The notes under the pieces are model-generated. The model did no database searches and was not told the DNA's origin. It worked only from the letters and a program-made list of their open reading frames with translations. The position numbers and the translations under genes were made by a program. From contig JAPFFF010000007.1 of NCBI GenBank assembly GCA_039105265.1, forward strand, positions 3,658,001 through 3,722,000: DNA of 64,000 nucleotides, in the 5' to 3' direction. Source of the DNA: Tritrichomonas musculus (lineage: Eukaryota; Parabasalia; Tritrichomonadida; Tritrichomonadidae). Every line of letters starts with the position of its first letter. Position 1 is the stretch's first letter. Below are positions 15,601-46,073 of this stretch, in pieces.

Positions 15601-17586
15601 CACCGGATTGTTGAGTATATGTGGACAATATGGAAGTGGCTCACGATTAGGTATAAATTGTTTTCGAAATACTCCAGTACAGTTATCAACATGATTCTTG
15701 AAGCGATTCATATTTTGATGACCGTAATGGGCATATGAGCCACACTTTGGGCAGATGTGGATGTTGGTCAGCTTCTCAGCATCCCTGATGTACATTATGT
15801 GGATGATTCGATTTTGGGTGTACAGCAATGCGGATTTCCTAAATGAGTTAGAACGCAGTTCCTGCTCACTATTGTATTTCCACTGGTCCTGAAGGTTATA
15901 CACCTTGCGATCCTGCAAGTACTCATAGATGTCCACATTCAAGTGATGCTTCTCGGCAGATGCCTTCATGGATTCAATTGATGTACCCGGATAGTTGTTC
16001 AGGAGGTCGATTGCAGCTTGTGATGGCTTAGTAGAATACACTATATTGTGCTCCTCGCATAGGAGTTTCTTAGCGGCCTGTGTACGGTGCTTAGTTTTGC
16101 AACTGTATTTGGGGTCGACTAGATGGTCATCTAGACATGCAGCCAGAAATCGGTACCAGCATAGATTGTCATCGGCGTTGTCTGTGATGATGAATTTGCT
16201 ATTTTTGATTTCAGGAGGTAAATCCTTGATGGGACCACTAACCTTGACCATTCGAGATACTGTGAATGAAACGGTTCCTACGAGAATCAACTTGGTTCCA
16301 GATGTTGAGGTCTCATATGAGTGCAGTACTGATTCAATATAATACTTCACGATATCAAGTGATTGCTCATCACGAACCACAATTGGGGTAGCAGATTTAT
16401 AGTTATTCCAAGTGATTTCCCTAGCTGTATATTGGAATGTGTCAGTCTCAGCACTGGATGACTCAAATACACCCGAGAGTTGGAAATATATTTTGAATGG
16501 TTTCACCTCACGTTCATAAACTTGTTGCAAGCCATCATATATACTGTTCAATGAGGATATCGAGTTGAAGTAGTATATGTATATAGGCTCGAAGGTATCA
16601 ATATCCGTGTGTTCATTGTAATCATTATCAGCATATTTGGCATATTTTTGCCAAGCCTCTACAGCCTTATCGTAGTCCTCAGGTAAGTTCACCATGAGGA
16701 AATCATTGTGTTTCGATTTGAATTCATGACCGAACTCGCCAAGGTACTCGAATATTTCATTATTTTCAGGATCTTTGGGGATACCATCAATATCAGTATT
16801 GTCATCAATAATATTTGCTAGTTTTGTAATTTTAGACCTATCTTGGAATATATCTTGTATTTCAGCTCTATCGAGATATTCGGGATAATATTTGTTGAAA
16901 TATGAATATACTTTACGTTCATCATCTAATTGCTGTTGGAACTCATCTTGGGTATTCATATGTTGAAGTACATCAATGGGGTCATTAATTTTGTAATCAG
17001 CTCTATTGAATTTATTGAAGTAATCATTATCCAGTTTGTCATTCAATCTCTTTATATATGAAGGCTGCTCATCATACCGAATTGGTTTCTTATGAGTTGT
17101 CGGTGGTGGAAGTATTGGTGGATACTCATTTTCACGAATCAATCGTTGAGCTTCCTGCAAAGCATATTTTGCAACATCAATATTATGTTGTATTTGGCGT
17201 TCCCTATATACCTTACGTTCATCATCTAATTGCTGTTGGAACTCATCTTGGGTATTCATATGTTGAAGTACATCAATGGGTTCATTAATTTTGTAATCAG
17301 CTCTATTGAATTTATTGAAGTAATCATTATCATCTGCAAGGCGTTCAGCCCTCAGTTGTCCAAAGAATGTATCAAAATGAGATTCCTGGAGTATACCATT
17401 GGGATTGAAACCTGTGCGAGCTACAAATGAGTTATAATTTAGGTACTTCGTGAGTTTGCTCAGTTGAGCAACAAATGTAGTGTTGGTTGGGATGTTACCA
17501 CCGAACTCATTGTTGATGATATTGATATAATTTTTGATAGTCCATGAAGGAATTGCACCAAAATTCTTATTCGAGATACAACTCAT
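12673..17586 (-). CDS. PolB: Protein-primed family B DNA polymerase (1637 aa) with embedded HNH domain
   Basis: Domains in order: N-terminal repeat region with two copies of DNDYFNKFNRADYKINDPID; an OTU-like stretch NADDNLCWYRFLAACL (about 470-485); a C2HC zinc knuckle CPKCGSYAHYGH...HVDNC (about 615-635); ExoI YDFETVE (about 683), ExoII FNSSRFDSN, ExoIII YNDNDVEMM. Next an HNH/endonuclease VII-like insert, CHLCGEHF, then PTLDRINNDIGHELSNCKLA and CAECNRLRSR (about 1025-1085). Then PolA DFNSLYPSAF (about 1167), PolB KISMNGSYGYDG (about 1365), PolC EGDTDSAYFA (about 1462). All catalytic motifs are intact. Compared with E5 it carries five extra residues (QELRS) from a 16-bp repeat at 15850. Start at 17584-17586 matches the E5 start and its leader. 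Confidence 0.93.
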   Translation of the reverse strand: MSCISNKNFGAIPSWTIKNYINIINNEFGGNIPTNTTFVAQLSKLTKYLNYNSFVARTGFNPNGILQESHFDTFFGQLRAERLADDNDYFNKFNRADYKINEPIDVLQHMNTQDEFQQQLDDERKVYRERQIQHNIDVAKYALQEAQRLIRENEYPPILPPPTTHKKPIRYDEQPSYIKRLNDKLDNDYFNKFNRADYKINDPIDVLQHMNTQDEFQQQLDDERKVYSYFNKYYPEYLDRAEIQDIFQDRSKITKLANIIDDNTDIDGIPKDPENNEIFEYLGEFGHEFKSKHNDFLMVNLPEDYDKAVEAWQKYAKYADNDYNEHTDIDTFEPIYIYYFNSISSLNSIYDGLQQVYEREVKPFKIYFQLSGVFESSSAETDTFQYTAREITWNNYKSATPIVVRDEQSLDIVKYYIESVLHSYETSTSGTKLILVGTVSFTVSRMVKVSGPIKDLPPEIKNSKFIITDNADDNLCWYRFLAACLDDHLVDPKYSCKTKHRTQAAKKLLCEEHNIVYSTKPSQAAIDLLNNYPGTSIESMKASAEKHHLNVDIYEYLQDRKVYNLQDQWKYNSEQELRSNSFRKSALLYTQNRIIHIMYIRDAEKLTNIHICPKCGSYAHYGHQNMNRFKNHVDNCTGVFRKQFIPNREPLPYCPHILNNPVYEYCLAYGLEWKPNIYYITYDFETVEQPVNTSIGSSTTINSRLIPLSVSSCVKSQSGCNTRHFSLRDSTEFITEWIEWLFEQSQQVYHDKVQYMKTFINESIDTLNKIDRNLNVITVFGFNSSRFDSNLFKQYLNYCSWSVESNSIIGTTSSLKQFILKSSKYDTKLRFIDAQSFVAGGTLRQFGVDFGGLENSSKGVFPYEAINTENYNEVLSQTEPFEYEAFYSYLNQKNPLTPDDYKLYLEDAKNYKTRWDYLLAYNDNDVEMMIKPIDNLITLNAQYNVDLISNLSLSKNASCIKYALAYKEFDPNTEYSIQNPSNTFKPNLKWWRFKCENYYNQDVKYNQSHKDSPRNLDKCVCEEQFDEFMKMYNNPDTGKCHLCGEHFTWTNKPTLDRINNDIGHELSNCKLACAECNRLRSRDDPNITKLRIQLKKYCKMMHLPTLINDEQEYYSLRNNITGGLSNVMHRVNIKGHTNINRFRYNAVDHKVISYDTPHTMTHIVGVDFNSLYPSAFSSTKHDFNPYHGGVMYMPGSMLERFDVYNNGTKNMKTYNSCMHIINSRNLRKHPKYLFKAEVILKCPVSKINNFINFPPVFRNFDITNDETTIGPYMHDYMTHNKLPSVDKTERKLTMSVDTMGTYQTFSNYYLWFLLDHGLVIEDIKSLTKYEAHRGFNPFVSEFMKRRQDIISGAVSGNEKFYKISMNGSYGYDGMNTEKFSKIKICSRDKTFQNIIYDNYVSGIKLSDDNYLLQMNPKSFKCTTCLQESFWTLDNAKFWYLTFIYEFMYKCLDVERFHFIEGDTDSAYFAVAGDESKGSNQEFKYIIKNRAFYDENIYKFMPNPNINTIADEKKILGLCIEKYGENMIALAPKCYTIFNSGSITKALKLKGVSLKKNHITSDDYKDIIDNGGVKVGKNINLQLMRNTKIQSKISEMTMSKITVNKNALTGTHTKMIVLANQSCAPFIHGLTSGDYIML
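15850..15865 (-). repeat. R16 copy inside PolB of E2
   Basis: GCAGGAACTGCGTTCT in sense, read as QELRS. The E5 PolB lacks it: AATAGTGA-AACTCATTT flanks agree, with one base there instead of 16, a net in-frame gain of 15 bp. Confidence 0.85.
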
Positions 17587-17656
17587 TTGCCCAAACGTAA
17601 AAATATAAAATTGTAATCGGTAAAAATATTGATTAAACATTATTTTTGAATTTTGG

Positions 17657-18133
17657 CTAGAAATCGATTGTATCAATCTCAACTTCGGGGGTTAGAGTCG
17701 TTTCACTAGGAGGAACATTTATAGTCATATGGGTGTTGAGTAGTTTTTGGGTCATATACATGGAGATACTTAAATTTAGGTTATCGAATATTAGTTTACG
17801 CAATAGGGATATACGTTTATGAGGTTCCACGTTGGATACTGCATCGATTACATCCTTTGATGAGACATATTGGATCAATCGGTCGTGATCCTTAATATCC
17901 AAAAACTTGCTTCGATTGAATATATGGGTTCGATTTAAGCGAGAATGGGGATGTTCAATAGATGATGTCTCAGGAGGTGAGTCACTTCGAACGAAATTCT
18001 TAGGCTGTACCGTTGTGCTTGGATTAGGAGATGGCTGTTTATGGTTCATACGTTTAATCAAATGCTTGACATCTTGGCACAAATCGGTGATACCATTTAA
18101 AATTTTTAATAGTATATCAGTGTCAATTTCCAT
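17657..18133 (-). CDS. PolB-adjacent conserved protein (158 aa), E2
   Basis: Short N-terminal helix (DILLKILNGITDLCQDVKHL), a low-complexity Pro/Ser linker and a conserved C-terminal domain: RLNRTHIFNRSKFLDIKDHD, VIDAVSNVEPHKRISLLRKL, LSISMYMTQKLLNTHM. Four copies exist in the window (also 23362, 57149, 60711), each next to PolB or at the place where PolB is expected. Such a partner could be the terminal protein that primes replication, or a DNA-binding replication factor; no known domain recognised, so this is inference. Lies 70 bp upstream of the PolB start in the same direction. Confidence 0.65.
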   Translation of the reverse strand: MEIDTDILLKILNGITDLCQDVKHLIKRMNHKQPSPNPSTTVQPKNFVRSDSPPETSSIEHPHSRLNRTHIFNRSKFLDIKDHDRLIQYVSSKDVIDAVSNVEPHKRISLLRKLIFDNLNLSISMYMTQKLLNTHMTINVPPSETTLTPEVEIDTIDF

Positions 18134-18480
18134 TTATACAAAATAAAATATTATTTTAACAAATTTAGGTTGCTGGTGGAATGTGATTGGTAGTAAGAGA
18201 GGTCCTTTAGTATGACCTTCAGTACAACCTTCAGTACAACCTTTAGGATAACCTTTAGTATGACCTTTCGTAGTAAGTACCCCTAGCCTTCTAAACTAGG
18301 GCAATAGTGGCGGTCATAAGTGAACATCTATATAGTCCCATGATGCTGACCACTTATTCCTAGTTATGAGTATCAGTTAGGGTCAATTCAAAAATAGTCA
18401 GGTGGCCTTCAGTTATGGGTCAGTAATTGGGGCCATTTAGGTAATTCTATCTGGTCCGATCCCGCACACTCATCACTACT
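18134..18480. repeat. E2 terminal region with 12-bp tandem repeats
   Basis: No gene. Imperfect 12-bp units of type ACCTTCAGTACA run from about 18201 to 18270. Toward the end lies TATCTGGTCC (18448-18457), the reverse complement of GGACCAGATA found near the ends of E5 and E7, then CATCACTACT at the terminus. Confidence 0.8.
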
Positions 18481-18767: not shown

Positions 18768-18783
18768 GCAGGAACTGCGTTCT
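18768..18783 (+). repeat. R16 copy in E3 integrase remnant
   Basis: GCAGGAACTGCGTTCT in sense, read as AGTAF(Y). The E5 integrase has it at the same place (37790); the E1 integrase has no counterpart of this stretch. Confidence 0.85.
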
Positions 18784-19268: not shown

Positions 19269-20301
19269 CCACAGTATGGCCTATATAGGAGTTTATTTTT
19301 GGGTAAATGAGTAGACATTATGATCATGCGACTAATACTCTCACGATAGAACCCGGACAATATGATAATTTAAATAAAAACAATGCTATAGATCAAATAA
19401 CTATTAGTCCAAATGGTCACACCATTTATATAATACCTCACGTGATAATACCACCACCATTTGTACGTAACTTCTTTGCTCGAAAAGAGCCTGATGAGGA
19501 TGGCATTGGAATTAAGTCTATAAAATATTACTTCTGTTTGTCAAATTCGTATGATGCGGATTATATCTGGACTTGGGAAAACTCATTCGATAAAGATGTT
19601 GTTTATCTAGGGGAACGTCCAAAACGACTAACTGATAATATGAATATATGTTTGCCAGTTAAATATTTCGAGGTAAACATTGTTAATAAAGTTCGGCTAA
19701 CAGTTGGGCGGAGATGCGAAGAAGGATTTTATATCCCATTATTGGCTGAAGAGAGTGACCAAATACCTACTGTGAATATTGTTCAAAACACTCGTGTATA
19801 TCACAGCCCTAATAAGTCCAGACAAAGTGAGAAGAATATTGAGTTTGCATTTGCCAAAAAACCCACAAATGCACCTCGTCCAAAACCCCTTCCACCACCA
19901 CCAGGTGTAACGCCAATTACAACTGAACAACGTATTAATGATATACGCAAACAGCCCAAGGTTGATGGCAATGGTGTATATCGTTCGACGGATATTCGGC
20001 CTGCAACCGCACCAATTACTCTAGCTAAGAAAAATGGTGATAAGCAGGAATATCGCGTAAAATATGAAACACAGTATGACCTGGTTAGAAATATTCGAAA
20101 TAGATTACAGCAAAGCAAGCTCGATTTCGAGGCCATAAGTAATCCAAGCATACAATCATCAGCTAGGGTTCTAACACCAAACAAGAGTCAAAACCGAATT
20201 GCTAGCAAACCGCGTGATAGAATACGTGATACTCCAACACCATCCAAATCCAATTCGGTATCATTTGGACCATCATTCAAAAACATCGGATTCCAGCCCA
20301 A

Positions 20302-20317
20302 GCAGGAACTGCGTTCT
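20302..20317 (+). repeat. R16 copy in proline-rich gene of E3
   Basis: GCAGGAACTGCGTTCT in sense, read as QELRS(N), the same frame as in the E2 polymerase. Confidence 0.85.
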
Positions 20318-20341
20318 AACTCCCAAAGTCTGCATATTGAG

Positions 20342-20347
20342 GACCTT
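20342..20347. other. E4 target duplication GACCTT, left copy
   Basis: Matches 49966-49971. Confidence 0.93.
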
Positions 20348-20607
20348 AGTAGTGATTATAGACCGGCTGAGCAGGGGATAAAAAAGGGGTATCAAAAGGG
20401 GTAGGGTTAAAATACATATTTTAAGTTAACGGTCGCCGCTTTTGAATCTTCATCTTTGAATTTACATCTTTGAACTTGTTTAGTAGTATATATCAGTCGG
20501 TTTCCGTCAGGCTAAAGCCCGCCGTCAACACGACTAATGAACAAAAATAACACAACTCAAAAAATCGAACTTTCAAAAATTTTTTATTTTTTTATCGGCA
20601 GTTTATA

Positions 20608-20639: not shown

Positions 20640-21121
20640 AGTAGTGATGGTAGTTCCGCATGGGGACCAGATAAATTTCAAATATAACAGCCACATCTAA
20701 CCTAATTTTGATATTCACATAACCATTTAAAATTAAGCTCCAGACCTTGAATTTTTGCTGAAATGTCATAGTCCAAATCAAAGGAATCTATGGTCTTTTA
20801 AAGGAAATTGCATGTGCCAGGTATTCCCTCCATATCCCCAATATCCCCATGCGGAACTACCAGGATGCATATCCATGCTCACTACTAAGAGGTTCACTTA
20901 AGGGGTCACACATCACACCTCATACCTCACACCTCATATCTCACACCTCACACCTCACCTCAAATTGGTATAGGGGTACCCAAGAGGGGCCTCTCAAAAT
21001 CCATTTTAGGTAAATTCCATTCGGCTTCGCCTCAAGATAAATGCTTACGCATTTCCATAAATTGACAATCCCAAAAATAATGCTATTCTTGAATCAATTT
21101 AATTTTTTATCTGGTTTGAAA

Positions 21122-22366
21122 ATGAGCGTTGTCCCAACTAACACCCAAGTAGTTTCATATGAAGGTTCTTTCTGCAAGGAATTGGAGATTCGTATGAACA
21201 AAATATTGAATAAATCCCAACGTGATCATAATCGCGAGTCAGCTATCAAGTGCTATATACATAAGGAGCTCTCGCTTGATGAGTACGATGAGTGGATCCA
21301 AGATATGAATACCAAAATTGATAGTTATACAAACATTGAATCTCCTGAGCGAGCACTGCTAATGAAGGAGTTATCATATATCAACCGAGATCGCGAACGT
21401 CTAATGAAATTTCAAGATGAGCTCGATAAGAAACGCAAAACTTTGATTTACAGTTATACGCACCCCCTTGATTATGCTATTGACATCATCACAAAGGATA
21501 TCAATATGTTCAACCAGAATTTGCTCAGTTGCATATTCGAATCGTTTGTCAATAAGGTCAAATCCTTATGTCCCAAAGACAAATTATATGAGGGTACCAT
21601 TAAATTCGTATACTATGATAGAACCTCTACCAAGGTCATAAACCTATTCGATTCATTAACACAAAGATTAATATCTAGCTTCACCAAGTTACTCGCTGAA
21701 GTTGCAACAAATGAATATTTCGCAAATGATATACATAAATATGATTCCCTAGTGAAATTGCGCGAGGAAATCAGTAATGCTTGTTATAATCTATACCTTG
21801 GAACAATCATTGATGCAATCGATAATAAACTTGATCAATATCCCCCAACTGAAATGTCATCTAGTGAACTCGTTATTGGGTACTCTAGAGTACTCATGAA
21901 GAATCTCAATGAATATATCTTACACGATTTATCCAAAATCATCGATAAGGAAATCAAGGATTGCATTGCAAAAATATGTGAAAATGAGCTCTTAAATTAT
22001 ATCCACATTAAGGAACCAGAGATGGCTGAGAAATCCAAACAGAGTTTGACTGAGGTATCTGCCAAGGTATCTGCCAAGGAATCTGCCAAGGAATCAAATG
22101 CCGTACCCCAAACTACACCCATTATAGCTGAAGTATATGAGATTGATCAGGAGAAGACCTTAGACGATTTCATAAAGGGTCTCCCAAATGATAAGATATG
22201 TATAGTAGAATTGACTCAAAAATATAATGCGTACTTCGACACTAATGTAAACCCTCGTGGATTAGGTGTAATACTCTCAAAATCGGGTAAACTGAGAACG
22301 CAGTTCCTGCTTAAGACCATTGCATGGGAGAAGAGTAAGAGAGTTATATACTATAGCAAGGCTTGA
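21122..22366 (+). CDS. TIR-borne 414-aa protein, left copy
   Basis: MSVVPTNTQVVSYEGSFCKE start, chosen because the leader ATTTTTTATCTGG...AAATG matches other starts (22572, 55875, 56320); an upstream in-frame ATG at 21041 is less likely. Mostly alpha-helical with charged coils, an alanine/serine repeat (SAKVSAKESAKES) near 325, and a C-terminal 70 residues (TLDDFIKGLPNDKICIVELT ... NPRGLGVILSKSGKLRTQFL) that look like a winged-helix DNA-binding fold of the viral primase/replication type. Identical to the right-TIR copy at 44829. Function unknown; a TIR-resident DNA-binding protein is plausible. Confidence 0.7.
   Translation: MSVVPTNTQVVSYEGSFCKELEIRMNKILNKSQRDHNRESAIKCYIHKELSLDEYDEWIQDMNTKIDSYTNIESPERALLMKELSYINRDRERLMKFQDELDKKRKTLIYSYTHPLDYAIDIITKDINMFNQNLLSCIFESFVNKVKSLCPKDKLYEGTIKFVYYDRTSTKVINLFDSLTQRLISSFTKLLAEVATNEYFANDIHKYDSLVKLREEISNACYNLYLGTIIDAIDNKLDQYPPTEMSSSELVIGYSRVLMKNLNEYILHDLSKIIDKEIKDCIAKICENELLNYIHIKEPEMAEKSKQSLTEVSAKVSAKESAKESNAVPQTTPIIAEVYEIDQEKTLDDFIKGLPNDKICIVELTQKYNAYFDTNVNPRGLGVILSKSGKLRTQFLLKTIAWEKSKRVIYYSKA
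22295..22310 (-). repeat. R16 copy in TIR gene (antisense)
   Basis: AGAACGCAGTTCCTGC in the coding strand, read as RTQFL. Confidence 0.85.
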
Positions 22367-22571: not shown

Positions 22572-23339
22572 ATGGAATCAACAGCAATCAACATTCCAAT
22601 GTCAGCCATTGTCGAACCAATCAATGACGAATATGAATACATCCAGTATAATGAGAAGCTTCGTTTGATACATTCAATCAAAGATGATATGTACCAGATG
22701 CAATCGATTCTCACTGCATGTAATTCAAAGAAACAAGCTTATAGGTGGAGGCAACTCGCTGAAACCAATGAAATTCTTGATGAATTATCGTCACAGCAAA
22801 ATTGCTGCGACCTAGATATTGTTCAAGATAGACCTAATTTACCGAATGATTTGAAAGGCACATACATTCACCGATTGCTTGTCAATGATGTTGCATGCTG
22901 GGCTAATCGAAAGTATGCCATATATATTGCCAAACTATTGGATTCATATTTTGAGAAGCAACGTGAGCAGCTGGTTAACAAAATCGATGACCTAACTCCA
23001 AGGGCTGTCCCCAAAGATCACAAACATAGCTACCGATATATGATATGGCTTGAGGAACTTCCCAAAAATAAGAATTTTGTGATACTTCATCTCGTTCGTC
23101 GCAACAAGCATTCATGGAGGCAGGTCAGTAAGATTTATCAAGATGAGAAGAAGCGCTGGGCATATGTTGATGACCTACCAATTGCGATGACCCCGAATGA
23201 AGATATCAAACGAATGGCCAAAGCTATGTTCAAAGGGGATGATGTCCGTGTAGGTGGTACTGATATTATCATTAACAAATCATGCCTTGATGAGTTTCAT
23301 GAAGCTGTAGACAAATACTTTAAAAATATACATCTTTAA
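22572..23339 (+). CDS. KilA-N domain protein (255 aa), E5
   Basis: KilA-N DNA-binding pattern: AYRWRQLAETNEILDEL (about 57-75), GTYIHRLLVNDVACWANRKY (about 97-117) and AIYIAKLLDSYFEKQ. The C-terminal part (SYRYMIWLEELPKNKNFVIL, LVRRNKHSWRQVSKI, IAMTPNEDIKRMAKAMFKGD) is shared with the E7 copy at 56320. KilA-N proteins occur in large DNA viruses and phages and bind DNA, often as regulators. First gene inside the left TIR, followed in the same direction by the PolB-adjacent gene, HNH and PolB. Carries the R14 hairpin word at 22794. Confidence 0.85.
   Translation: MESTAINIPMSAIVEPINDEYEYIQYNEKLRLIHSIKDDMYQMQSILTACNSKKQAYRWRQLAETNEILDELSSQQNCCDLDIVQDRPNLPNDLKGTYIHRLLVNDVACWANRKYAIYIAKLLDSYFEKQREQLVNKIDDLTPRAVPKDHKHSYRYMIWLEELPKNKNFVILHLVRRNKHSWRQVSKIYQDEKKRWAYVDDLPIAMTPNEDIKRMAKAMFKGDDVRVGGTDIIINKSCLDEFHEAVDKYFKNIHL
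22794..22807. repeat. R14 hairpin word in KilA-N gene (E5)
   Basis: CAGCAAAATTGCTG, read as QQNC(C). Same word in the E7 KilA-N gene and between genes. Confidence 0.75.
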
Positions 23340-23361: not shown

Positions 23362-23895
23362 ATGGATATTTCAGCTACAGAATCTGACACTGATATACTC
23401 TCAAAAATCGTAGATGGTATCACCGATTTACGCCGAGATGTCAAGCATTTGATTAAACGTTGGAGCAGTAAACGCAAACCTTCCACAGATTCAACTCAGG
23501 ATTCACCTCAGGACTCAACTCAGGATTCACCTCCTGAAGCAACTGAGAACGCAGTTCCTACCTCACCTCCTGATGAAACTGAAACTCAATCTATTGAACA
23601 TCCTCGACCTCGTTTAAATAGAACTCATATATTCAATCGAAGCAAGTTTTTGGATATTGAGGATCACGACCGATTGATCCAATATGTCACATCAAAGGAT
23701 GTAATTGATGCGGTCTCCAACGTGGAACCTCATAAACGAGTAACTCTATTGCGTAGACTCATCTACGATAACCTAAAGTTGAGTATCTCCATGTATATGA
23801 CCCAAAAATTAATCAACACCCATATGCCTATAAACGGTCCCCCAAGGGAAACAGCTCCAGACCCCGATGATGAGATCGATACAACCGATTTCTAA
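23362..23895 (+). CDS. PolB-adjacent conserved protein (177 aa), E5
   Basis: Same family as 17657, 57149 and 60711. N-terminal DILSKIVDGITDLRRDVKHL helix, a Ser/Thr/Pro/Asp linker with QDSPQDSTQDSPPE repeats, and the conserved C-terminal domain RTHIFNRSKFLDIEDHDRLI ... LKLSISMYMTQKLINTHM, with an acidic end DEIDTTDF. Here the HNH gene lies between it and PolB, all in one direction. Candidate terminal protein or replication partner (inference). Confidence 0.65.
   Translation: MDISATESDTDILSKIVDGITDLRRDVKHLIKRWSSKRKPSTDSTQDSPQDSTQDSPPEATENAVPTSPPDETETQSIEHPRPRLNRTHIFNRSKFLDIEDHDRLIQYVTSKDVIDAVSNVEPHKRVTLLRRLIYDNLKLSISMYMTQKLINTHMPINGPPRETAPDPDDEIDTTDF
23546..23561 (-). repeat. R16 copy (15/16) in PolB-adjacent gene
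   Basis: AGAACGCAGTTCCTAC on the coding strand, read as (E)NAVP; absent from the sister genes at 17657 and 57149. Confidence 0.7.
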
Positions 23896-23918: not shown

Positions 23919-24680
23919 ATGGCTACAGAAGCAGTAACTGAGATTGAACATTTACAGCAAATAATCGAGTCACTCCAACAGGAGAACCTCGAATTGATGA
24001 AGCATAACCAGCTTCTTCAAGAAGAGAATTCAAAGCTGACCGAGCTGTTGGAGCAAGTTGATGACGATATTGAAGGACCTGTTGATGAGGAAGCTGATTG
24101 TGAAGAGAATTCTAAGTGGCTACCTCTCAAAGGATTTGATGATTACGTGATTAAAAACTACTACCCATACGACATCAAACGAATATCTACTGGGTGTATT
24201 GTTAAAGAATACGACCATGGTGATGGATATATTTGTGCAAGTCTACTTCTGGGTAATAAACAAAAAAATTGTAGAAAGCATGTATTGGTAGCTCGTCAAT
24301 TCATATTAAATGATGACCCAAAACATAAAACAATGGTTGACCACATAAATAAGCACCGAGATGACAACCACACAACGAATCTCCGTTGGGTCACACCAAG
24401 CGATAATACCAAAAATAAATCTTCACACAGAGGTATTGAATATGAGTATGTGAAAGAGATTCCGGATGATGCGATTGTTGTAGATTCATATGGAAAATAC
24501 AAATTTGAAGACTATTACTTTCACGATGACAAATTTTATTTCTACAACGGGATTGAGTATAGAATACTTCATATCTGCACCAATAAGAATGGATGTAAGT
24601 ATGTATGCGCTATGAACACTGAAGGACAGAAAACATCAATATGGTACTCCAAATTCAAGCGAATATATAACCTTGAGTGA
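23919..24680 (+). CDS. HNH homing-type endonuclease with coiled-coil N terminus (253 aa)
   Basis: Residues 5-50 form a coiled coil (IEHLQQIIESLQQENLELMK). A NUMOD4-like segment follows (KWLPLKGFDDYVIKNYYPYD, ISTGCIVKEY), then HNH_3: HVLVARQFILNDDPKHKTMV, DHINKHRDDN, NLRWVTPSDNTKNK (about 125-170), with the expected H...DH.N...N...N pattern. Such enzymes are usually free-standing homing endonucleases of phages and large viruses. It sits between the PolB-adjacent gene and PolB, whereas E2 has no gene there, so it appears to be cargo that moves independently. Confidence 0.88.
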   Translation: MATEAVTEIEHLQQIIESLQQENLELMKHNQLLQEENSKLTELLEQVDDDIEGPVDEEADCEENSKWLPLKGFDDYVIKNYYPYDIKRISTGCIVKEYDHGDGYICASLLLGNKQKNCRKHVLVARQFILNDDPKHKTMVDHINKHRDDNHTTNLRWVTPSDNTKNKSSHRGIEYEYVKEIPDDAIVVDSYGKYKFEDYYFHDDKFYFYNGIEYRILHICTNKNGCKYVCAMNTEGQKTSIWYSKFKRIYNLE

Positions 24681-24772: not shown

Positions 24773-27700
24773 ATGAGTAATATTACAAACGGACATTTTG
24801 GTAAAATTCCTACAAAAACTGTCAAAAATTATATCAATATTGTTAATAATGAGTTCGGTGGCAACATCCCAACCAACCTCACATATGTCGCTCAGCTGAG
24901 CAAGCTCAGTAGGTTCCTCAATGAGAAATCATTTGTAGATCGAATAGGTTTTGATACTAGGTCTGCTCTTCAGGAATCGCATTTTGATACATTCTTTGGA
25001 CAACTGAGGGCTGAACAAGAGGATGAGCAGTTGAGGGCTGAAACTGAACAGAGGTTGCGTAAACTAGAGGATGACAGACTTGAACAGGAACGCCTTAAGC
25101 AGGAACAGGAACTTGCTGAGAAGGAACGTAAACGGCTTGAGCGTGATCGATTGAAACAGGAGCGATTGGCTAAAGAAGCAGAAGAGCAGGAACGCAAACG
25201 GCTTGAGCGTGATCGATTGAAACAGGAGAGATTGGAACAGGAACTTGCTGAGAAGGAACGCAAACGGCTTGAGCGTGATCGATTGAAACAGGAACGTGAA
25301 CGCAAGCGAATTGCCGAAGAGAGGGAACGGGAGCTGAATCGTAAGATTACGAATGGGAATTTCGATAAAAGGTATATACCTACAGAAACTGTCAAAAATT
25401 ATATCAATATTGTTAATAATGAGTTCGGTGGCAACATCCCCCTCACTGATAAATATATTGTTCAGCTGACTAAACTTTCGGGGTTCCTCAATGAGAACTC
25501 ATTTATAACTCGCACAGGTTTCAATCCCGATGGTATTCTCGAGGAATCACATTTTGATACATTCTTTGGACAACTTAGGGATGAACGTGCTGAGCAGGAG
25601 CGCTTGGAACAGGAACGTATTGAGCGTGAGCGTGCTGAGCGGGAACTTCTTGAACAGGAGCGTGCTGAACAGGAGCGATTGGAGCGTAAACGTGCAAAGA
25701 GACATGCCAAAAAAGCTCGTAAACGGGAGCGTGCTGAGCAGGAGCGCTTGGAACAGGAACGTATTGAGCGTGAGCGTGCTGAACGCCTTGCAGATGATAA
25801 TGATTATTTCAATAAATTCAATAGAGCTGATTACAAGGTTGATAACCCCATTGATGCATTTCAACATAAGAATACTCGAGATAAGTTTAAACAAAAACTT
25901 GTAAGGGAACGTAATGAGCATGAGCGTGCTGAACGCCTTGCAGCCGATAATGATTATTTCAATAAATTTGATAGAACTGATTACAAGGTTGATGATCCCA
26001 TTGATGCATTTCATCGTATGAATACTCGAGATAAGTTTAAACAAAAACTTGTAAGGGAACGTATTGAGCGTGAGCGTGCTGAACGCCTTGCAGCCGATAA
26101 TGATTACTTCAGTAAATTCAATAGAGATGATTACAAGATTAATGACCCCATTGATGCATTTCATCGTATGAATACTCAAGATGAGTTCCAACAGCAATTA
26201 GATGATGAACGTAAGGTATATTCATATTTCGACAAATATTATCCCGAATATCTCAATAGAGCTGAAATACAAGATATACTCAAAAACAGGTCCAAAGTTA
26301 TAAAACTAGCTCATATTATTGATGGTAGCACTAATATTGATGGTATCCCCAAGGACCCTGAAAATAATGAGATATTCGAATACCTCGGCGAGTTTGGACA
26401 TGATTTCAAATCGAAACATACTGGTTTCCTCATGGTGAATGAACCTGAGGACTATGATAGGGCTGTAGAGGCTTGGAATAAATATAACAAATATGCTGAT
26501 AATGATTACAATGAACGCGAGGATATTGATACATATGAGCCAATATACATATACTACTTCAACTCGATATCTACATTGAACAGTATATATGATGGTTTGC
26601 AACAGGTTTATAAACGCGAGGTAAAACCATTCAAAATCTATTTCCAACTCTCGGGCGTATTTGAGACCTCCAGTGCTGAGAATGACACATTCCAATATAC
26701 AGCTAGGGAAATCAATTGGAACAACTATAAGTCAGCCATCCCAATTGTGGTTCGTGATGAGCAATCACTTGATATCGTGAAGTATTATATTGAATCAGTA
26801 CTGCACTCATATGAAACCTCAACATCGAGCACCAAGTTGATTCTCGTAGGAACCGTTTCATTCACAGTATCTCGAATGGTCAAGGTTAGTGGTCCCATCA
26901 AAGATTTGCCTAAGGAAATCAAAAATAATAAATTCATCATCACAGATAACGCCGATGACAATCTATGTTGGTATCGATTTCTGGCTGCATGTCTCGATGA
27001 CCATCTAGTTAAACCCAAATCTGGTTGCAAACCCAAATCTGGTTGCAAAACTAAGCATCGTACTCAAGCAGCTAGGAAGCTCCTATGCGAGGATCACAAT
27101 ATAGTGTATTCAACTAAGCCATCTCAAGCTGCAATTGACCTCCTGAACAACTATCCGGGTACATCAATTGAATCCATGAAGGCATCTGCTGAGAAGCATC
27201 ACTTGAATATTGACATCTATGAGTACTTGCAGGATCGCAAGGTGTATAACCTTCAGGACCAGTGGAAATACAATAGTGATAACTCATTTAGGAAATCCGC
27301 ATTGCTGTTCACTCAAAATCGAATCATTCATATAATGTACATCAAGGATGCTGAGAAGCTGACCAACATCCATATCTGCCCAAAGTGTGGTTCATATGCA
27401 CATTATGGTCATCACAATATGAAGCGTTTCGAGAACCATGTTGATAACTGTACTGGTGTATTTCGAAAACAATTCATACCCAATCGTGAACCACTACCAT
27501 ACTGTCCACATATACTCAGCAATCCGGTGTACGAATATTGCTTAGCCTATGGTCTCGAATGGAAACCCAACATATATTACATCACCTACGATTTCGAAAC
27601 AGTTGAACAGCCTGTGAATGCATCTATTGGTTCATCCACATCCATCAACTCACGACTGATTCCCCTTAGTGTATCATCATGTGTCAAATCGCAATCTGGT

Positions 27701-33034: not shown

Positions 33035-35809
33035 ATGATTACCGTAATTAATAGTGGAGTCAAGGACCCCACATACCGAGAGATTCTTAGGTGTATGGTA
33101 CAAAAATGCAAAATACCAAATGCAATCGTCTATAATATAATAGCCGCCATCAATAGGCCAGATTTGTACACGGATGAGGTATCGCATAAGCTTGAAGATA
33201 TGAAAAATGCATGGGAAAGCACCAACATAAATGACCCAGATCAGTTTGCGAAATTGTATGTTAATTTACTTGTATATACAGCATTCTTCGAAGATCTGGA
33301 GCGACATTTGAAACCCCCAGGAGATCCAAGCGAAGTCCCAAGCGAAGTCCCAAGCGAGGAACTCCAACAGGATATCCCCGAATTTGAGGAACCTATTGAG
33401 CTAGAATTTGAGGAGGAGGAGGAAGAAGGTGATATGAGTCCATTCCAAATACTCACACCCAATCGAATAGCTCGAATTAGTGTTGATATGGATGCACTTA
33501 AGACTCAAGATATACTCCCCGAACAAATCCTTAATGTATTACCCAAATACTATCGCATTGCTGATGACCCCGATAAATATGCACCCCGCAAACTAAACCA
33601 AATTGAGATTCGAGAGGTACGAGATATGGTTGATAATATCATACGTAACTTGGATTCAATCGAGAAAAAGCAAGCCGATATCATAAGGTCTCCAAAAACC
33701 AATAAAGAGGTATCTAGTATACGGAAATGCATTACAACTGTTAAAACCTATGAAGATATCGAAGCTGAAATCAATAAGGAATTCTTACAATCCCTGACCA
33801 ATTTGCCAGGTGAGAGTAATATGGATAGACTTATGACTACATTCAACAAAACACTCAAACATGATTTGCAAGCACTTCGCAATTTCGGTGTTTTGGGTGA
33901 GGACTCATATGATGGACTTACGGAATGCTATAATAGGGCTATCCATCCACAGTCTAGTGATGACCTTAAAACAAAAGATTTGGTAGCCTCATTACATGAA
34001 TATATTTCTAGAGGTCAATATGAAGATACCCGTGATATATTAGATAAGCTCAATCTAGTAAATAAGCTTAATAGCAAATCGCATAAATCGAAACCCTCAG
34101 GAGATCCAAGCGAAGTTCCTAGCGAAGTTCCTAGCGAAGTTCCTAGCGAAGTTCCTAGCGAGATTCCATTAGGGGATATCCCTGGATCGGTACCCAAAGC
34201 GACATCCCAATTGATGACAAATATATCCCCTGAAATCGAGTATACAAATAATAACATTTTTTCTTCACCTAAAGAAACTATGGAAGTCCCCAACGCTAAT
34301 GATAACGATGCACCAGCAGCTGAAGATGTTAGTGATGATGATCTATTTGATATTGATTTGAATGATGTACAAGTAGACAAAAAATTTAAATATGCACGTA
34401 CACCAGCTCGACAAAAATCTGGTAAGTCAAGAACACATGATTATGAAAAGCTCACCATTGCACCAGAATCAGTCTTAAAGCCTGCAAAAATCACTGATAC
34501 TAGCCAGTTTGCTCCTTATGATGTCTCGGCTCGTATTCAGAGATCCGGCAGAGGAACTCGTGGTGATTTGAATTATGGTGTCATAACAGACCGTATAAGT
34601 GATAGGTATGGTTCAGTATCATTAACAGGTAATTCAGCTGAACGCAGACAGAATTTCCTCGATATCATCATTAATGGGAACTACAGAGTTAAGTATATTC
34701 CAAATGCTGCTTCACGTGACACAGCACAGGAATATTGCAGAAACCATTTGGATAAAGATGGAACTCCCAAATATAGATTATTAGGCACGAACGCACGAGA
34801 CCCATTAAATAATAAAATCACCGACCTCAATGGAGACCAGGTTGATGATATTGTCCTAGTAGATAAACGAGGTGTTCCTGCAATTGTTAATGGTTATAAG
34901 CTTGTTCTCGCATCACCATACAAGAAAGTGTGGAAAACAACCCATGCGACAAAGAAGGCTAGACTTGATGAACCATTTAATGAATGGCTTGCTAAACAAT
35001 TTAATAAATCAATCAATAATGTTGATTGGAAAGAAGGCAAATATGTACTTACAGAAACTGATAATATGCAAAGACTAACGGCCGCATATGGTAAAAAGGG
35101 CTTACCAAAGCCACGTATCAGTAAGCGACTCACACCTAATGGATATTGGGCTTCTGCATTCTCACATGTATGGAAGTTGTTTTGGAATAGCCAGACTTAT
35201 TCTAATCCTGTTCTTCAGGATCTCAAGAAGGCTACCAATTATCTTACTGTTGCTAATACCATATTCATATACTATTTCGACCAACCAATGAAGTATTCTG
35301 TTGAACAATCACAAGAATTTGGTGGAAAATTCCTTACATATGCACGATGGGCTGCATGGCGTCGTGTAAATAAGGATAAATATAATGCAAGTTTGGGTCC
35401 TGCTGTTGTAAAGTTCGTAAATACGGTTATTGGCTCAGCTGTTAATCTAGAAACTGGAGACTTAACTGAAGAGGCAGCTAACGGTAGCAAATGGCATCCA
35501 AAACTCCAACAATTAATCAAGTTTATAGAAACAATTATATTTGATTGGGGATTTGGTATGTCAATACGAGAGGGAATGACTAGGAATATGAATCAACCAG
35601 CACCATTTGACGATATCGTTAATGATATATATGCTGGTCAATTACAGGAAATCAAGAAGGACTGGGCCCAAATGGTTGCAATCAATATTCAAGAAGTCAT
35701 ATATCAACCAAAGAGTGATTATCTGAAGTACAAGGCAGAAGCTGAAGCAGACAAAAATAGACGTCGTGGTGAAGCCAACATTCTGGTTAAAGCAAAGGGT
35801 GTTTATTAA
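33035..35809 (+). CDS. Large DLNGD-domain protein (924 aa), E5
   Basis: One copy of an 85-residue helical unit at the N terminus (TYREILRCMVQKCKI ... YNIIAAINRPDLYTDEVSHK ... NAWES). Then PSEVPSEVPSEE repeats, an acidic run (EFEEEEEEG), a helical middle, a second PSEVPSEVPSEVPSEI run near 360, and the conserved C-terminal block from about 545: NFLDIIINGNYRVKYIP, DLNGDQVDDIVLVD, VNGYKLVLASPYKKVWK, SKRLTPNGYWASAFSHVWK. Probably a virion or capsid-assembly protein (inference); compare the entries at 875 and 50331. Confidence 0.8.
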   Translation: MITVINSGVKDPTYREILRCMVQKCKIPNAIVYNIIAAINRPDLYTDEVSHKLEDMKNAWESTNINDPDQFAKLYVNLLVYTAFFEDLERHLKPPGDPSEVPSEVPSEELQQDIPEFEEPIELEFEEEEEEGDMSPFQILTPNRIARISVDMDALKTQDILPEQILNVLPKYYRIADDPDKYAPRKLNQIEIREVRDMVDNIIRNLDSIEKKQADIIRSPKTNKEVSSIRKCITTVKTYEDIEAEINKEFLQSLTNLPGESNMDRLMTTFNKTLKHDLQALRNFGVLGEDSYDGLTECYNRAIHPQSSDDLKTKDLVASLHEYISRGQYEDTRDILDKLNLVNKLNSKSHKSKPSGDPSEVPSEVPSEVPSEVPSEIPLGDIPGSVPKATSQLMTNISPEIEYTNNNIFSSPKETMEVPNANDNDAPAAEDVSDDDLFDIDLNDVQVDKKFKYARTPARQKSGKSRTHDYEKLTIAPESVLKPAKITDTSQFAPYDVSARIQRSGRGTRGDLNYGVITDRISDRYGSVSLTGNSAERRQNFLDIIINGNYRVKYIPNAASRDTAQEYCRNHLDKDGTPKYRLLGTNARDPLNNKITDLNGDQVDDIVLVDKRGVPAIVNGYKLVLASPYKKVWKTTHATKKARLDEPFNEWLAKQFNKSINNVDWKEGKYVLTETDNMQRLTAAYGKKGLPKPRISKRLTPNGYWASAFSHVWKLFWNSQTYSNPVLQDLKKATNYLTVANTIFIYYFDQPMKYSVEQSQEFGGKFLTYARWAAWRRVNKDKYNASLGPAVVKFVNTVIGSAVNLETGDLTEEAANGSKWHPKLQQLIKFIETIIFDWGFGMSIREGMTRNMNQPAPFDDIVNDIYAGQLQEIKKDWAQMVAINIQEVIYQPKSDYLKYKAEAEADKNRRRGEANILVKAKGVY

Positions 35810-37640: not shown

Positions 37641-38999
37641 TTAGATAGCAAAGTACTGCTTATAGTCTTTACCTAGTGATGCATAATTGGTTGCCACGAA
37701 TCGGGTATACATAATGGGGACAGTTATAGTAGCTCGCTCATCATCAGTCATTGGCGTTCGACCAGTTTTGGTTTTGATATACGGAACATAGAACGCAGTT
37801 CCTGCTTGCTTATCATCATTCAACTGGAATCTACGATATGGGTTCAGCAATTTGCATTCGACGTTCCCATTATGGTATCTTATGAATTCAGCAATCTCAT
37901 TGAACACACGCCTCTGCTTCTCATGCTTCTTCTCAGTTTTGGATGTATCGTAATGGACCAATATGATATTACCCTTGCGATAACTCAGCAGACCATCCAT
38001 TTGCATATTATTTTTGACTCGACGTAGCCTCCTTTGGCAATCCCTGATGTATCTCCACTCCAAATCTGGGTTGTGCTGCATTTGATTGGGTGTGTAGTAT
38101 ATCTCCTTAGGCTCTTTCGCTAGATACGGGTCATAGAACGCAGTTCCTGCTTGGATTCCATCATCTCGGTAATTGGGATTGGGCATTCGTAGAGACCGAT
38201 GTGGTGTGTTGTTATAGTAGTGAACCATCTGTTGCATCAGGAATGGGTCTCCAATTCTACGATTATCTAGACCGAATGCATTGCGGAGTGTCCTAATGGT
38301 TGCATCAACGATTTTGTGAGCGTTGCTGTGTTTGGATTTATCGACAATCACTGCATTACCGTCAATCAACACATTTTTGGTACCTGCATATTTATTTTTG
38401 TCTGGACTTCTGTAGGGAATTATATCAAGCACTTTTAGTAGATTATTTTCACCATCACATTTGATGGTATTAAATTTGAAGTCATCATATTTATCGAGAA
38501 TGATTTTGGCGTACGCATCCTTAATGGTATCAGCTAGTTTGTTCTTAAGTGGTTTCACAATTAGATATCGCGTATTGACATTCACCATGATGAGGTAAAT
38601 GGTTTCATGGGGTACCAATTTATCGCCAGCCTTCGTAGTGTACTTCACAAACATCAAATCGACCTCCCAGCAGCCAGGTTCTAATGAGAAATCCGGTTTT
38701 GAATAATAATTACATGATTTCAATTTGAAGTCCTTCACGAATGGTTCATGATGATACTCCGGATTGACGATAAACAGTGATGGGTCCAATTTTGATATTT
38801 TGGATTTGAATGGGTACTTGAGCAATGACTTGTACTCATTATCGAATATCTTGAATGATTTCTTGTTGGTATTAGCCATTTCCTGGGGCGGAGGGGGAGC
38901 AGGAACCGCGTTCTCAGGGGGCTTAGGTGGTTCTGGGGGCTTAGGTGTAGCAGGAACTGCTTTCTCACCCCACAAGAATGATGTTACTTTGTGAAACAT
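37641..38999 (-). CDS. INT: Retrovirus-like integrase (452 aa), E5
   Basis: N-terminal extension of 50 residues is Pro-rich (KPPEPPKPPENAVPAPPPP). Core: first Asp in CWEVDLMF (about 112), second in IKCDGENNL (about 181), third in NAHKIVDATIRTLRNAFG (about 231), where Asp again stands in place of Glu; HYYNNTPHRSL follows. C-terminal third as in E1 and E3 (SYRKGNIILVHYDTSKTEKK, TVPIMYTRFVATNYAS). Insertions relative to E1 include two R16 words in sense (AGTAFY twice) and two near-copies in the Pro-rich start. Should carry out integration at the 6-bp staggered target. Confidence 0.93.
   Translation of the reverse strand: MFHKVTSFLWGEKAVPATPKPPEPPKPPENAVPAPPPPQEMANTNKKSFKIFDNEYKSLLKYPFKSKISKLDPSLFIVNPEYHHEPFVKDFKLKSCNYYSKPDFSLEPGCWEVDLMFVKYTTKAGDKLVPHETIYLIMVNVNTRYLIVKPLKNKLADTIKDAYAKIILDKYDDFKFNTIKCDGENNLLKVLDIIPYRSPDKNKYAGTKNVLIDGNAVIVDKSKHSNAHKIVDATIRTLRNAFGLDNRRIGDPFLMQQMVHYYNNTPHRSLRMPNPNYRDDGIQAGTAFYDPYLAKEPKEIYYTPNQMQHNPDLEWRYIRDCQRRLRRVKNNMQMDGLLSYRKGNIILVHYDTSKTEKKHEKQRRVFNEIAEFIRYHNGNVECKLLNPYRRFQLNDDKQAGTAFYVPYIKTKTGRTPMTDDERATITVPIMYTRFVATNYASLGKDYKQYFAI
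37790..37805 (-). repeat. R16 copy in E5 integrase (1)
   Basis: Sense, read as AGTAFY. Confidence 0.85.
38135..38150 (-). repeat. R16 copy in E5 integrase (2)
   Basis: Sense, read as AGTAFYDPY; a second in-frame copy about 115 residues before the first. Confidence 0.85.
38899..38914 (+). repeat. R16 near-copy (15/16) in E5 integrase N terminus
   Basis: GCAGGAACCGCGTTCT, antisense to the gene, read as ENAVPA. Confidence 0.7.
38950..38965 (+). repeat. R16 near-copy (15/16) in E5 integrase N terminus (second)
   Basis: GCAGGAACTGCTTTCT, antisense, read as EKAVPA. Confidence 0.7.
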
Positions 39000-43147: not shown

Positions 43148-43201
43148 TTGGCATCATCGCCACTTAGAGCTTTTCGCATAAAAAGCTTTATTTTTGATTA
43201 A

Positions 43202-44158
43202 ATGTTGTATTACAAGCGCCTACAACCAACCCTTTTCGACTATACATCTATTGAATTATCAGACAGTTCCAGTAGTGATCCAATTGATTTTGATACATTC
43301 GATAGGTACCAGAAGCAGCAACCGGTATCCCAGAGATTTGATGTTGACGAGGCTATGAGTGAGGCCTATTCCAAGAATAGGGATAAAATCACGAATGCAT
43401 CCATAAGGCCAATCGCTAATGGGATCTATGCGTGGTACAATACTTTGAACATATTGGTAGCATCACAAGGCAAAGGCAAGAGCCATACAGTAATTCGCGA
43501 TATCATTCAAATGAGTAGACTCAATAACGCTAATTTTCATATGATCGTGTATGTGAGTAAGAACGGTATTATAAATGATTCCACATTTGAATCTCAACAC
43601 GAGCTCATCAACCTGCCCATTGAGGTCGTCGCTGATAGTAATGCTGAACGGTATTTGAAGGAGCTCGATCTATGGAAGGAGTTATATAACAAATATAGCT
43701 CAGTTGGGAAGGCTACAGTTGAAGCGTCAGCTGGAGCAGACTTGTCTGCGACCGATTCCAAGCTGCAGCAGATGTTTGAGTTCCTCCATATCAGCAAACT
43801 AGGGAAACCCAATGTACCACTCAACACCATAATCCTGTGCGAGGACTTCATTAAGAGCAAGCTATTGAAATCAGCATACTTCACAAACTATATCACCCAG
43901 TTGCGTCATAAGAATTCAATCGTTTACATCAACATCCAGTTCTTCAAGGGTGTGCCAACTGATTACAAAAATAATTGTACATCATTCTTCATATTCAATG
44001 GGTTCTCACGACAGAAACTCAATTACATATATCAGCAGGTGAGCATACCTTGTGAGTTCGAGGAGTTGTGGCAAAAATATAGAACATTATCTGGACATGA
44101 TTTCATATTGGTGAACACTGTTGAACATGATATGCAAGTGGTGTATTCAAAGGTTTAG
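43202..44158 (+). CDS. ATP: A32/FtsK-like genome-packaging ATPase (318 aa), E5
   Basis: Walker A ASQGKGKSHT at about 88-97 and Walker B TIILCED at about 206-212; sensor-like YINIQFF and RQKLNYIYQQ downstream. The N-terminal 85 residues are Ser/Asp-rich, less conserved. Family members pump element DNA into the capsid. TTTATTTTTGATTA precedes the ATG. Convergent with the 159-residue gene, overlapping 4 bp. Confidence 0.92.
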   Translation: MLYYKRLQPTLFDYTSIELSDSSSSDPIDFDTFDRYQKQQPVSQRFDVDEAMSEAYSKNRDKITNASIRPIANGIYAWYNTLNILVASQGKGKSHTVIRDIIQMSRLNNANFHMIVYVSKNGIINDSTFESQHELINLPIEVVADSNAERYLKELDLWKELYNKYSSVGKATVEASAGADLSATDSKLQQMFEFLHISKLGKPNVPLNTIILCEDFIKSKLLKSAYFTNYITQLRHKNSIVYINIQFFKGVPTDYKNNCTSFFIFNGFSRQKLNYIYQQVSIPCEFEELWQKYRTLSGHDFILVNTVEHDMQVVYSKV

Positions 44159-44634: not shown

Positions 44635-44828
44635 TTGGTGGTGATAAAAAAATCAATATTCAAATTTAAAAATAGATGATGAATCTCACACCTCATACCT
44701 CACACCTCATACCTCATACCTCATACCTCACCTCAAATTGGTATAGGGGTACCCAAGAGGGGGGTCATAAAATTCATTTTAGGTAAATCCTTTAATTGGG
44801 AATCCTCATAAGTCCAAAAATAAATTAT

Positions 44829-46073
44829 TCAAGCCTTGCTATAGTATATAACTCTCTTACTCTTCTCCCATGCAATGGTCTTAAGCAGGAACTGCGTTCT
44901 CAGTTTACCCGATTTTGAGAGTATTACACCTAATCCACGAGGGTTTACATTAGTGTCGAAGTACGCATTATATTTTTGAGTCAATTCTACTATACATATC
45001 TTATCATTTGGGAGACCCTTTATGAAATCGTCTAAGGTCTTCTCCTGATCAATCTCATATACTTCAGCTATAATGGGTGTAGTTTGGGGTACGGCATTTG
45101 ATTCCTTGGCAGATTCCTTGGCAGATACCTTGGCAGATACCTCAGTCAAACTCTGTTTGGATTTCTCAGCCATCTCTGGTTCCTTAATGTGGATATAATT
45201 TAAGAGCTCATTTTCACATATTTTTGCAATGCAATCCTTGATTTCCTTATCGATGATTTTGGATAAATCGTGTAAGATATATTCATTGAGATTCTTCATG
45301 AGTACTCTAGAGTACCCAATAACGAGTTCACTAGATGACATTTCAGTTGGGGGATATTGATCAAGTTTATTATCGATTGCATCAATGATTGTTCCAAGGT
45401 ATAGATTATAACAAGCATTACTGATTTCCTCGCGCAATTTCACTAGGGAATCATATTTATGTATATCATTTGCGAAATATTCATTTGTTGCAACTTCAGC
45501 GAGTAACTTGGTGAAGCTAGATATTAATCTTTGTGTTAATGAATCGAATAGGTTTATGACCTTGGTAGAGGTTCTATCATAGTATACGAATTTAATGGTA
45601 CCCTCATATAATTTGTCTTTGGGACATAAGGATTTGACCTTATTGACAAACGATTCGAATATGCAACTGAGCAAATTCTGGTTGAACATATTGATATCCT
45701 TTGTGATGATGTCAATAGCATAATCAAGGGGGTGCGTATAACTGTAAATCAAAGTTTTGCGTTTCTTATCGAGCTCATCTTGAAATTTCATTAGACGTTC
45801 GCGATCTCGGTTGATATATGATAACTCCTTCATTAGCAGTGCTCGCTCAGGAGATTCAATGTTTGTATAACTATCAATTTTGGTATTCATATCTTGGATC
45901 CACTCATCGTACTCATCAAGCGAGAGCTCCTTATGTATATAGCACTTGATAGCTGACTCGCGATTATGATCACGTTGGGATTTATTCAATATTTTGTTCA
46001 TACGAATCTCCAATTCCTTGCAGAAAGAACCTTCATATGAAACTACTTGGGTGTTAGTTGGGACAACGCTCAT
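44829..46073 (-). CDS. TIR-borne 414-aa protein, right copy
   Basis: Identical in protein to the left copy at 21122, as expected if the TIRs are kept alike by replication or conversion. Two copies per element double the dose. See the left copy for features. Confidence 0.7.
   Translation of the reverse strand: MSVVPTNTQVVSYEGSFCKELEIRMNKILNKSQRDHNRESAIKCYIHKELSLDEYDEWIQDMNTKIDSYTNIESPERALLMKELSYINRDRERLMKFQDELDKKRKTLIYSYTHPLDYAIDIITKDINMFNQNLLSCIFESFVNKVKSLCPKDKLYEGTIKFVYYDRTSTKVINLFDSLTQRLISSFTKLLAEVATNEYFANDIHKYDSLVKLREEISNACYNLYLGTIIDAIDNKLDQYPPTEMSSSELVIGYSRVLMKNLNEYILHDLSKIIDKEIKDCIAKICENELLNYIHIKEPEMAEKSKQSLTEVSAKVSAKESAKESNAVPQTTPIIAEVYEIDQEKTLDDFIKGLPNDKICIVELTQKYNAYFDTNVNPRGLGVILSKSGKLRTQFLLKTIAWEKSKRVIYYSKA
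44885..44900 (+). repeat. R16 copy in right TIR gene (antisense)
   Basis: GCAGGAACTGCGTTCT, counterpart of 22295-22310. Confidence 0.85.

Follow-up and report, generated by a model that had tools for sequence, protein, structure and literature searches.

R15a and its sisters: a probable class of ultra-short palindromic mobile inserts in Maverick DNA

Introduction

Short palindromic mobile DNA is already known from mitochondria and bacteria. The palindromic elements of Rickettsia are bacterial, about 100-150 bp long, and follow a family consensus; the double-hairpin elements of fungal mitochondria are larger than the units described here and carry two successive, side-by-side hairpins; and MUSE1 of Podospora is said to have been defined by Koll in 1996. 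Here we describe units of 15-16 bp in Mavericks, which are giant virus-like transposons. The stretch analysed, called the window below, comprises positions 3,658,001 to 3,722,000 of contig JAPFFF010000007.1 (64 kb), in which a 16-bp self-complementary word, GCAGGAACTGCGTTCT, recurs in unrelated genes. The Mavericks of this genome carry a class of inserts whose most frequently encountered member is the unit inserted here, a 15-mer that we call R15a, and we argue that these inserts are very probably mobile.

Several described systems resemble R15a in part. MUSE1 is a repeated undecamer of similar size that has been called invasive (PMC1864894, PMC7272585), the yeast mitochondrial GC clusters (GC42) are short, palindromic and mobile, and merge with each other (PMC4478555), the fungal double-hairpin elements are small, optional two-hairpin units called mobile (PMC7218506), and the Rickettsia elements are palindromes inserted in frame into genes that are not related to each other (PMC2996958). 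No such inserts were found among the listed titles and abstract openings on Trichomonas, Maverick and Polinton palindromes, transposable elements and hairpins, and none of the literature titles and abstract openings listed described 15-16-bp units with an interleaved rule, an A|T target (the bar marks the junction) and self-nesting; the main text of PMC10120064 does not contain 'palindrom'.

The repeated word and the inserted unit

The window holds seven exact and three one-change matches to GCAGGAACTGCGTTCT, at all ten places and with the mismatch counts given in the original prediction. A scan allowing up to three mismatches also returned ten matches, as compared to a mean of 0.18 and a maximum of 2 in 100 shuffles, and there is no exact or near copy of R15a in the window outside 15850-44900. 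In the whole assembly (193 Mb, 746 contigs) the word has 261 exact copies and its reversed form, used as a control, has none; at up to two mismatches the numbers are 390 and 10, respectively. The 16-bp word of the prediction is thus present, but the inserted unit is the 15-mer R15a, GCAGGAACTGCGTTC, and the final T belongs to the target, because the empty sites in PolB, c2, KilA-N and intB show so (see below). The base following the 15-mer is T in 261 of its 270 exact copies in the genome and G in the other nine.

The ten window places correspond to eight contexts: 22295 and 44885 fall in inverted copies of a single gene, their 80-base flanks being identical, and 18768 and 37790 represent one integrase position found in two elements. 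Many of the genome copies are likewise a few contexts repeated within repeated elements, and contexts therefore weigh more than counts. These repeated contexts are what can be said for a common ancestral gene region behind all copies. Against both common descent and chance stand the eight contexts of the window and the roughly 14 of the sample, together with the empty homologues and the use of both strands and five reading frames; the counts, far above expectation, speak against chance as well, so that we consider this explanation practically negligible. The contexts do not share an ancestor, and common descent of all copies was ruled out by the empty homologues. The original prediction thus withstands the test that was set for it, on counts as well as on ancestry.

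The sampled loci, denoted by L and a number, are stretches of the genome around copies, and the sample is Maverick DNA. Including the window, 66 exact R15a places were read out of the 270 exact 15-mers. The flank survey comprised 36 different flank strings, a number that counts near-duplicates and weak words, together with 20 further places and 3 with R15a. Genome-wide, the right-hand classes were 17 TAV (14 AA and 3 AG), 39 TATA, 56 TC (one filtered base) and 2 with T followed by G or T (two filtered bases); L062, L089, L090 and L091 were found through such classes. For the weak words ACAGGAACTGAGTTCT and kin (L012, L017, L018, L020, L023, L026) the data contain no empty form, and they were left out of the counts.

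About 14 R15a sites, in both orientations, could be recognised. Two are in the PolB-like gene (PolB-1 at 15851, and PolB-2 in L090/L091), three in the integrase-like gene (intA, intB and L089) and two in the proline-rich start of the integrase open reading frame (ORF). Single sites were found in c2 (ORF 43202-44158), in the KilA-N gene, in ORF 19307-20404 and in ORF 23362-23895 (tag5), two in terminal-repeat ORFs (22296 and L062), and one, L016 3599, is non-coding. In the window, intA is occupied at 18768-18782 (plus strand, exact word, read as AGTAF in an integrase-like ORF) and at 37791-37805 (minus strand, integrase-like ORF 37641-38999). The latter ORF also holds intB at 38136-38150 (minus strand, AGTAF) and, in its proline-rich start, two one-mismatch copies on the plus strand at 38899-38913 (ENAVP) and 38950-38964 (EKAVP). 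The copy at 22296-22310 (minus strand, RTQFL, ORF 21041-22366, left terminal repeat) has the same context as that at 44885-44899 (plus strand, ORF 44829-46154, right terminal repeat), and no empty homologue was seen for the former. The same negative holds for 20302-20316 (plus strand, ORF 19307-20404, KQELRS). The tag5 copy, at 23547-23561 on the minus strand, has one mismatch, reads ENAVP and has G, not A, as its left neighbour.

A 42-bp form, in which R15a is split after GCAG by 27 bp holding GAA-GCAAT-TTC-ATTGC, occurs at L013 3784 and L012 1601. The former corresponds to the site in ORF 19307-20404 and is in frame, i.e. it forms a 27-bp gap against the R15a of the window.

As predicted, AGTAF, (E)QELRS, RTQFL and ENAVP are all read in the window, and ERSSC elsewhere raises the number of frames used from four to five of six. 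A conserved peptide was ruled out by these five frames.

Occupied and empty sites

At PolB-1, c2, KilA-N and intB, the occupied copy equals its homologues plus exactly 15 bp, and the empty junction is A|T. No intermediate, partly formed words were seen at the empty forms of these four cleanest R15a sites. A target duplication was considered and rejected, as the clean empty sites, those of the sister inserts described below included, have none.

The predicted clean gain of 15 bp between two PolB-like genes is confirmed by alignment. At PolB-1 (15851-15865, minus strand, ORF 12673-17682, exact word read as EQELRS) the sequence is AATAGTGA, the 15 bp and then TAACTC, and the homologue, 27160-27399, lacks exactly these 15 bp and reads AATAGTGATAACTC. 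The empty site lies at 27270-27289 (plus strand, ORF 24773-30520), with the junction near 27279/27280. The PolB-like ORFs had no Pfam match at E 0.01, but DFET, SLYP and DTDS, which we take to be family-B polymerase motifs, appear in them in order. In the KilA-N gene, recognised by Pfam, the window is empty (22778-22797, minus strand, ORF 22572-23339, junction near 22787/22788) and L050 is occupied, the other 241 aligned bases being all identical (180 in the flank-lineage comparison). At intB, L009, L040 and other loci are empty and read CCAA|TATG. The empty sites and the five frames bear out the idea that a palindromic gain at the DNA level was seeded in unrelated genes, with the DNA and not the peptide conserved.

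For intA the DNA sample has occupied copies only. Two database relatives, P0001 and P0002, carry AGTAF there and are empty at intB, whereas the metagenome protein P0003 (82% identity) is missing precisely these five residues. Since AGTAF is present or absent at intA among relatives from other sources, the insert is not an artefact of this assembly. The integrase-like relatives, P0001-P0053, are 26-93% identical and come from public protein sets with contigs of up to 9,122 bases.

Sister inserts and their common design

A catalogue of clean gaps between homologues, together with a word search, yielded four further inserts of differing sequence, R15b and species 3, 4 and 5, and for every one of them there is a clean empty homologue with an A|T junction. 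All five members are 15 or 16 bp long and consist of interleaved inverted repeats S-P-S'-P', where S and P have the form GNAx and, in the 15-mers, one base is shared. The two overlapping inverted repeats originally seen in R15a belong to this design, which extends beyond that prediction to inserts of other sequence. The rule allows 256 words and the set is closed under reverse complement, and both insert design and target are strand-symmetric.

R15b, GTACGAAGTACCTTC, has 31 A|T copies and a clean PolB site, AATAGA|TGTATT; in the window a one-mismatch copy lies at 9864-9878 (minus strand, ORF 9763-12639), where L009 lacks exactly 15 bp at CAA|TGG and window 32829-33005 lacks 18 bp. Species 5, GGAAGAATTCCATTC, with 27 A|T copies, is at 28468-28482 (plus strand) in the PolB-like ORF 24773-30520 and is absent, with an A|T junction, in window 14588-14767 and in L046. 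Species 4, GGATGCATATCCATGC, sits in an inverted copy of the Maverick's own end: at 20863-20878 (plus strand, non-coding, left terminal repeat), where L010 and L024 lack it, and at 46317-46332 (minus strand, right terminal repeat). Species 3, GAATGTATATTCATAC, has 16 bp and 22 copies in five flank strings. The element ends themselves, AGTAGTGATGGTAGTTCCGC, are at window 20640 and 46555, with the inverted end copy about 220 bp inside.

The 15-bp members that were read are nearly all in open frames, L016 being the lone exception for R15a, and the 16-bp members among those read are non-coding (species 4 by its position before ORF 21041, species 3 without an open frame longer than 200 bases). This distribution fits selection after insertion, and argues against removal of the insert before translation.

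The gap catalogue, compiled without the GNA rule, has 24 distinct contexts with gaps of 15 or 16 bp. Ten of these are perfect S-P-S'-P' and all ten fit A|T; among the other 14, five fit A|T and three are R15a shifted or mutated. The chance of a perfect S-P-S'-P' in a random 16-mer is 4^-8, but the ten contexts are dependent, with two haplotypes each for PolB-1 and c2, both terminal repeats for species 4, and four sequences in all. A window scan for interleaved repeats found 18 words (mean of 20 shuffles 4.8), and 15 with A|T (0.6); among the eight A|T words other than R15a, three AT-rich or repetitive ones (18142, 57125 and 61093) may have arisen by chance. Two more A|T-flanked interleaved repeats of other sequence, at window 1599-1616 and 5974-5988, lie in ORFs 875-3433 and 5572-7515, respectively. 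The GNA rule itself is matched in the window by 10 words exactly and by 15 within one mismatch, as compared to 0.01 and 0.39 in 100 shuffles. In member-derived pattern matches, nearly all of them known members, the complement rule is obeyed at 29/34, 31/38 and 25/26 sites. One extra rule word, GAAAGAATTTCATTC, has two copies. Control loci from a viral collection (154,690 bases) contain no rule word besides the 18 R15a words used to pick them. A role of the 16-bp word as a general viral word was rejected: the collection gives 18 stretches with one match each, and as its size is unstated, near-chance is an estimate.

Could the words be built in place, by snap-back template switching during replication? 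Palindromic words are common here, and two of them, CAGCAATTTTGCTG and GGTAGAATTCTACC, turn over at one place. An insert made in this way would however be tied to its flanks, whereas R15a does not vary with its surroundings. That one exact word recurs strains the idea further, and by our reasoning one fold-back would not give S-P-S'-P'. We regard it as highly improbable.

Self-nesting

Species 3 splits species 4 (GCATGGATA|TGCATCC) and also itself (GAATGTATA|TTCATAC), in both cases at A|T, and an R15b-like word at G|T. The self-nested copies form an intergenic ladder with alleles of 0, 1 and 4 copies. The empty forms are the window (57725-57762, plus strand), L005, L010, L024 and L047, of which L024 and L047 overlap, and read CCCCATGA|TGGATGCG, or CCCCACGA in two. 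A single copy (+16 bp) is present in L050, and L027 (+64 bp) has three 9-bp left halves, the unit, and three 7-bp right halves. Slippage would have extended only one of the two sides; as the growth is equal on both, we conclude that insertion was repeated at the inner A|T.

Two other explanations have to be considered at this point. The first is passive capture, in which hairpin fragments that survive digestion are joined into A|T breaks by alternative end joining, R15a being the most abundant fragment. Tiny units without terminal duplication agree with it, as does the lack of an enzyme among the ORFs scanned, but random capture would not be precise enough to give one unit exact ends at about 14 sites or to nest a unit three times at the same inner position. 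In addition, classical end joining is described as missing in Trichomonas vaginalis (PMC6635534), which counts if the host is that species. All in all, we find passive capture unlikely. The second is an excision scar, i.e. the constant 15-16 bp would be the footprint left at A|T by a larger transposon with hairpin ends. The constant ends and the A|T target are as expected, and the 42-bp form in two contexts may be what remains of something longer; yet the loci read contain no long filled site (no genome-wide search was made), species 3 re-enters itself, and several sequences of one design would need several parents. This explanation appears quite unlikely to us.

Possible mechanism

Our preferred reading is that R15a and its sisters form a class of mobile inserts of ultra-short length, which a hairpin-guided enzyme acting in trans may move; to this reading as a whole we assign a probability of roughly 55%. 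That they are mobile inserts is the strong part of it, while the hairpin-guided enzyme is a tentative and, on balance, somewhat doubtful one. We speculate that strand-displacement replication of Mavericks would expose single strands, that the unit, each strand of which could form a 4-bp hairpin, may be handled as folded single-stranded DNA, and that the enzyme would recognise the fold and join the unit at A|T, in the manner of Helitrons and of other single-strand transposases that recognise hairpins. GNA loops give unusually stable DNA hairpins, and there is a literature on the GCGAAGC mini-hairpin.

There are several points that weigh against this reading. With predicted energies of -0.7 to -2.8 kcal/mol (z -0.80 to -2.66) the hairpins are weak, and the best predicted fold has a GNA-type loop in only six of ten strands. 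A Pfam scan of 17 window ORFs gave KilA-N plus weak HNH, integrase-core and coiled-coil matches, and the moving enzyme was not among them. The GNA rule was written from the five members, so the rule counts are not independent of them; only these five are amplified, and the wider set of rule words gave no demonstrated mobility. Nor is the A|T rule proven at every R15a site. For tag5, a relative (74% identity) reads GAG|TCA, a G|T junction, and L050 places its 15-bp gap otherwise; PolB-2 and L062 show a net difference of 15 bp with junction bases in the empty copies that are not A|T; and the homologues of L089 vary, most being without an A|T junction and one (L043) reading GAA|TCC. Either the flanks have changed since insertion, or an A or T can arrive together with the unit.

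Finally, the occupied copies at PolB-1, c2 and intB lie in different flank lineages, as judged by upstream and downstream distances, and L056 combines a left and a right haplotype that belong to two different occupied forms. Conversion between Mavericks would move units within a site. As Maverick conversion, repeated insertion or both can explain the flank-lineage pattern, we leave the number of insertion events unstated. The different flank lineages would also suit a selected DNA site, a binding or recombination word that is kept by selection and spread by Maverick conversion in the manner of an uptake or crossover signal, and MUSE1 is reported to occur at recombination junctions (PMC1864894). 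Selection on point mutations would not yield clean gains of 15 bp, and a site read by its sequence would not be swapped for other sequences of the same design, which makes the selected site very unlikely in our opinion.

A bolder form of the mobile-insert reading is that the units are a new kind of mobile DNA set by fold, not sequence: GNAx-GNAy followed by both complements in the same order, 15-16 bp long, either strand of which can fold into a hairpin. Such a unit would enter A|T without duplicating it and would also insert again into its own core. We consider this possible, even if we lean slightly against it. If it holds, other sequences that obey the rule could be mobile, and Mavericks would have a running source of in-frame five-residue insertions, so that viral and transposon proteins gain such inserts in almost any frame. 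Mobile DNA outside organelles would then reach down to 15 bp with the fold as its recognition unit, and it should be asked which enzyme reads the fold. The empty, occupied and nested states would be sharp markers for Maverick ancestry and recombination.

Neighbouring features

Upstream of the integrase ORF (window 39032, L009 7106, L013 1125 and L022 3315) the palindromes CAGCAATTTTGCTG and GGTAGAATTCTACC stand at the same place in different elements, and both are also present in other contexts. Tandem 12-bp coding units related to AGCGAAGTCCCTA, with PSEV in the first ORF, occupy window 33035-35809 and 50331-54104 and vary in number between copies; they were rejected as inserts, being tandem coding repeats. 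An HNH-like gene at 23919-24680, below the Pfam cut-off, adjoins the KilA-N gene, and a diverged element has a similar-looking ORF at L016 5677-6447. A solved-structure search with ORF 5572-7515 gave no match.

Comparison with known systems

It is useful to compare these units with the systems mentioned above. To our knowledge the Rickettsia elements have no shared design or A|T target. The originally proposed likeness to them stands in as much as R15a is a palindromic insert within genes, inserted in frame at all but one site. It does not extend to length, as R15a has 15 bp, to the non-coding site, or to the several inserts that enter A|T without duplication; moreover, the 16-bp members read are non-coding. 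The fungal double-hairpin elements differ in that their hairpins are successive, while the inverted repeats of the units described here interleave. MUSE1 is mitochondrial, has 11 bp and is tied to recombination junctions (the comparison is by description, not by sequence or target), and GC42 has 42 bp, is mostly intergenic and has AG/ACT flanks read as target duplication (PMC4478555), in contrast to the 15-16 bp, the mostly genic location and the absence of an AG/ACT flanking duplication in our units.

Helitrons are far larger, and their ends are 5' TC and 3' CTRR (PMC8969392), whereas the units described here begin with G and end with C. The same source gives them a terminal hairpin, A|T entry and no target duplication (PMC8969392), and it is the combination of hairpin, A|T and lack of duplication that makes our units recall Helitrons. 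Such A|T entry is seen in clean empty homologues of all five members, with tag5, PolB-2, L062 and most homologues of L089 as the exceptions. R15a and its sister inserts would rank among the smallest mobile DNAs described.

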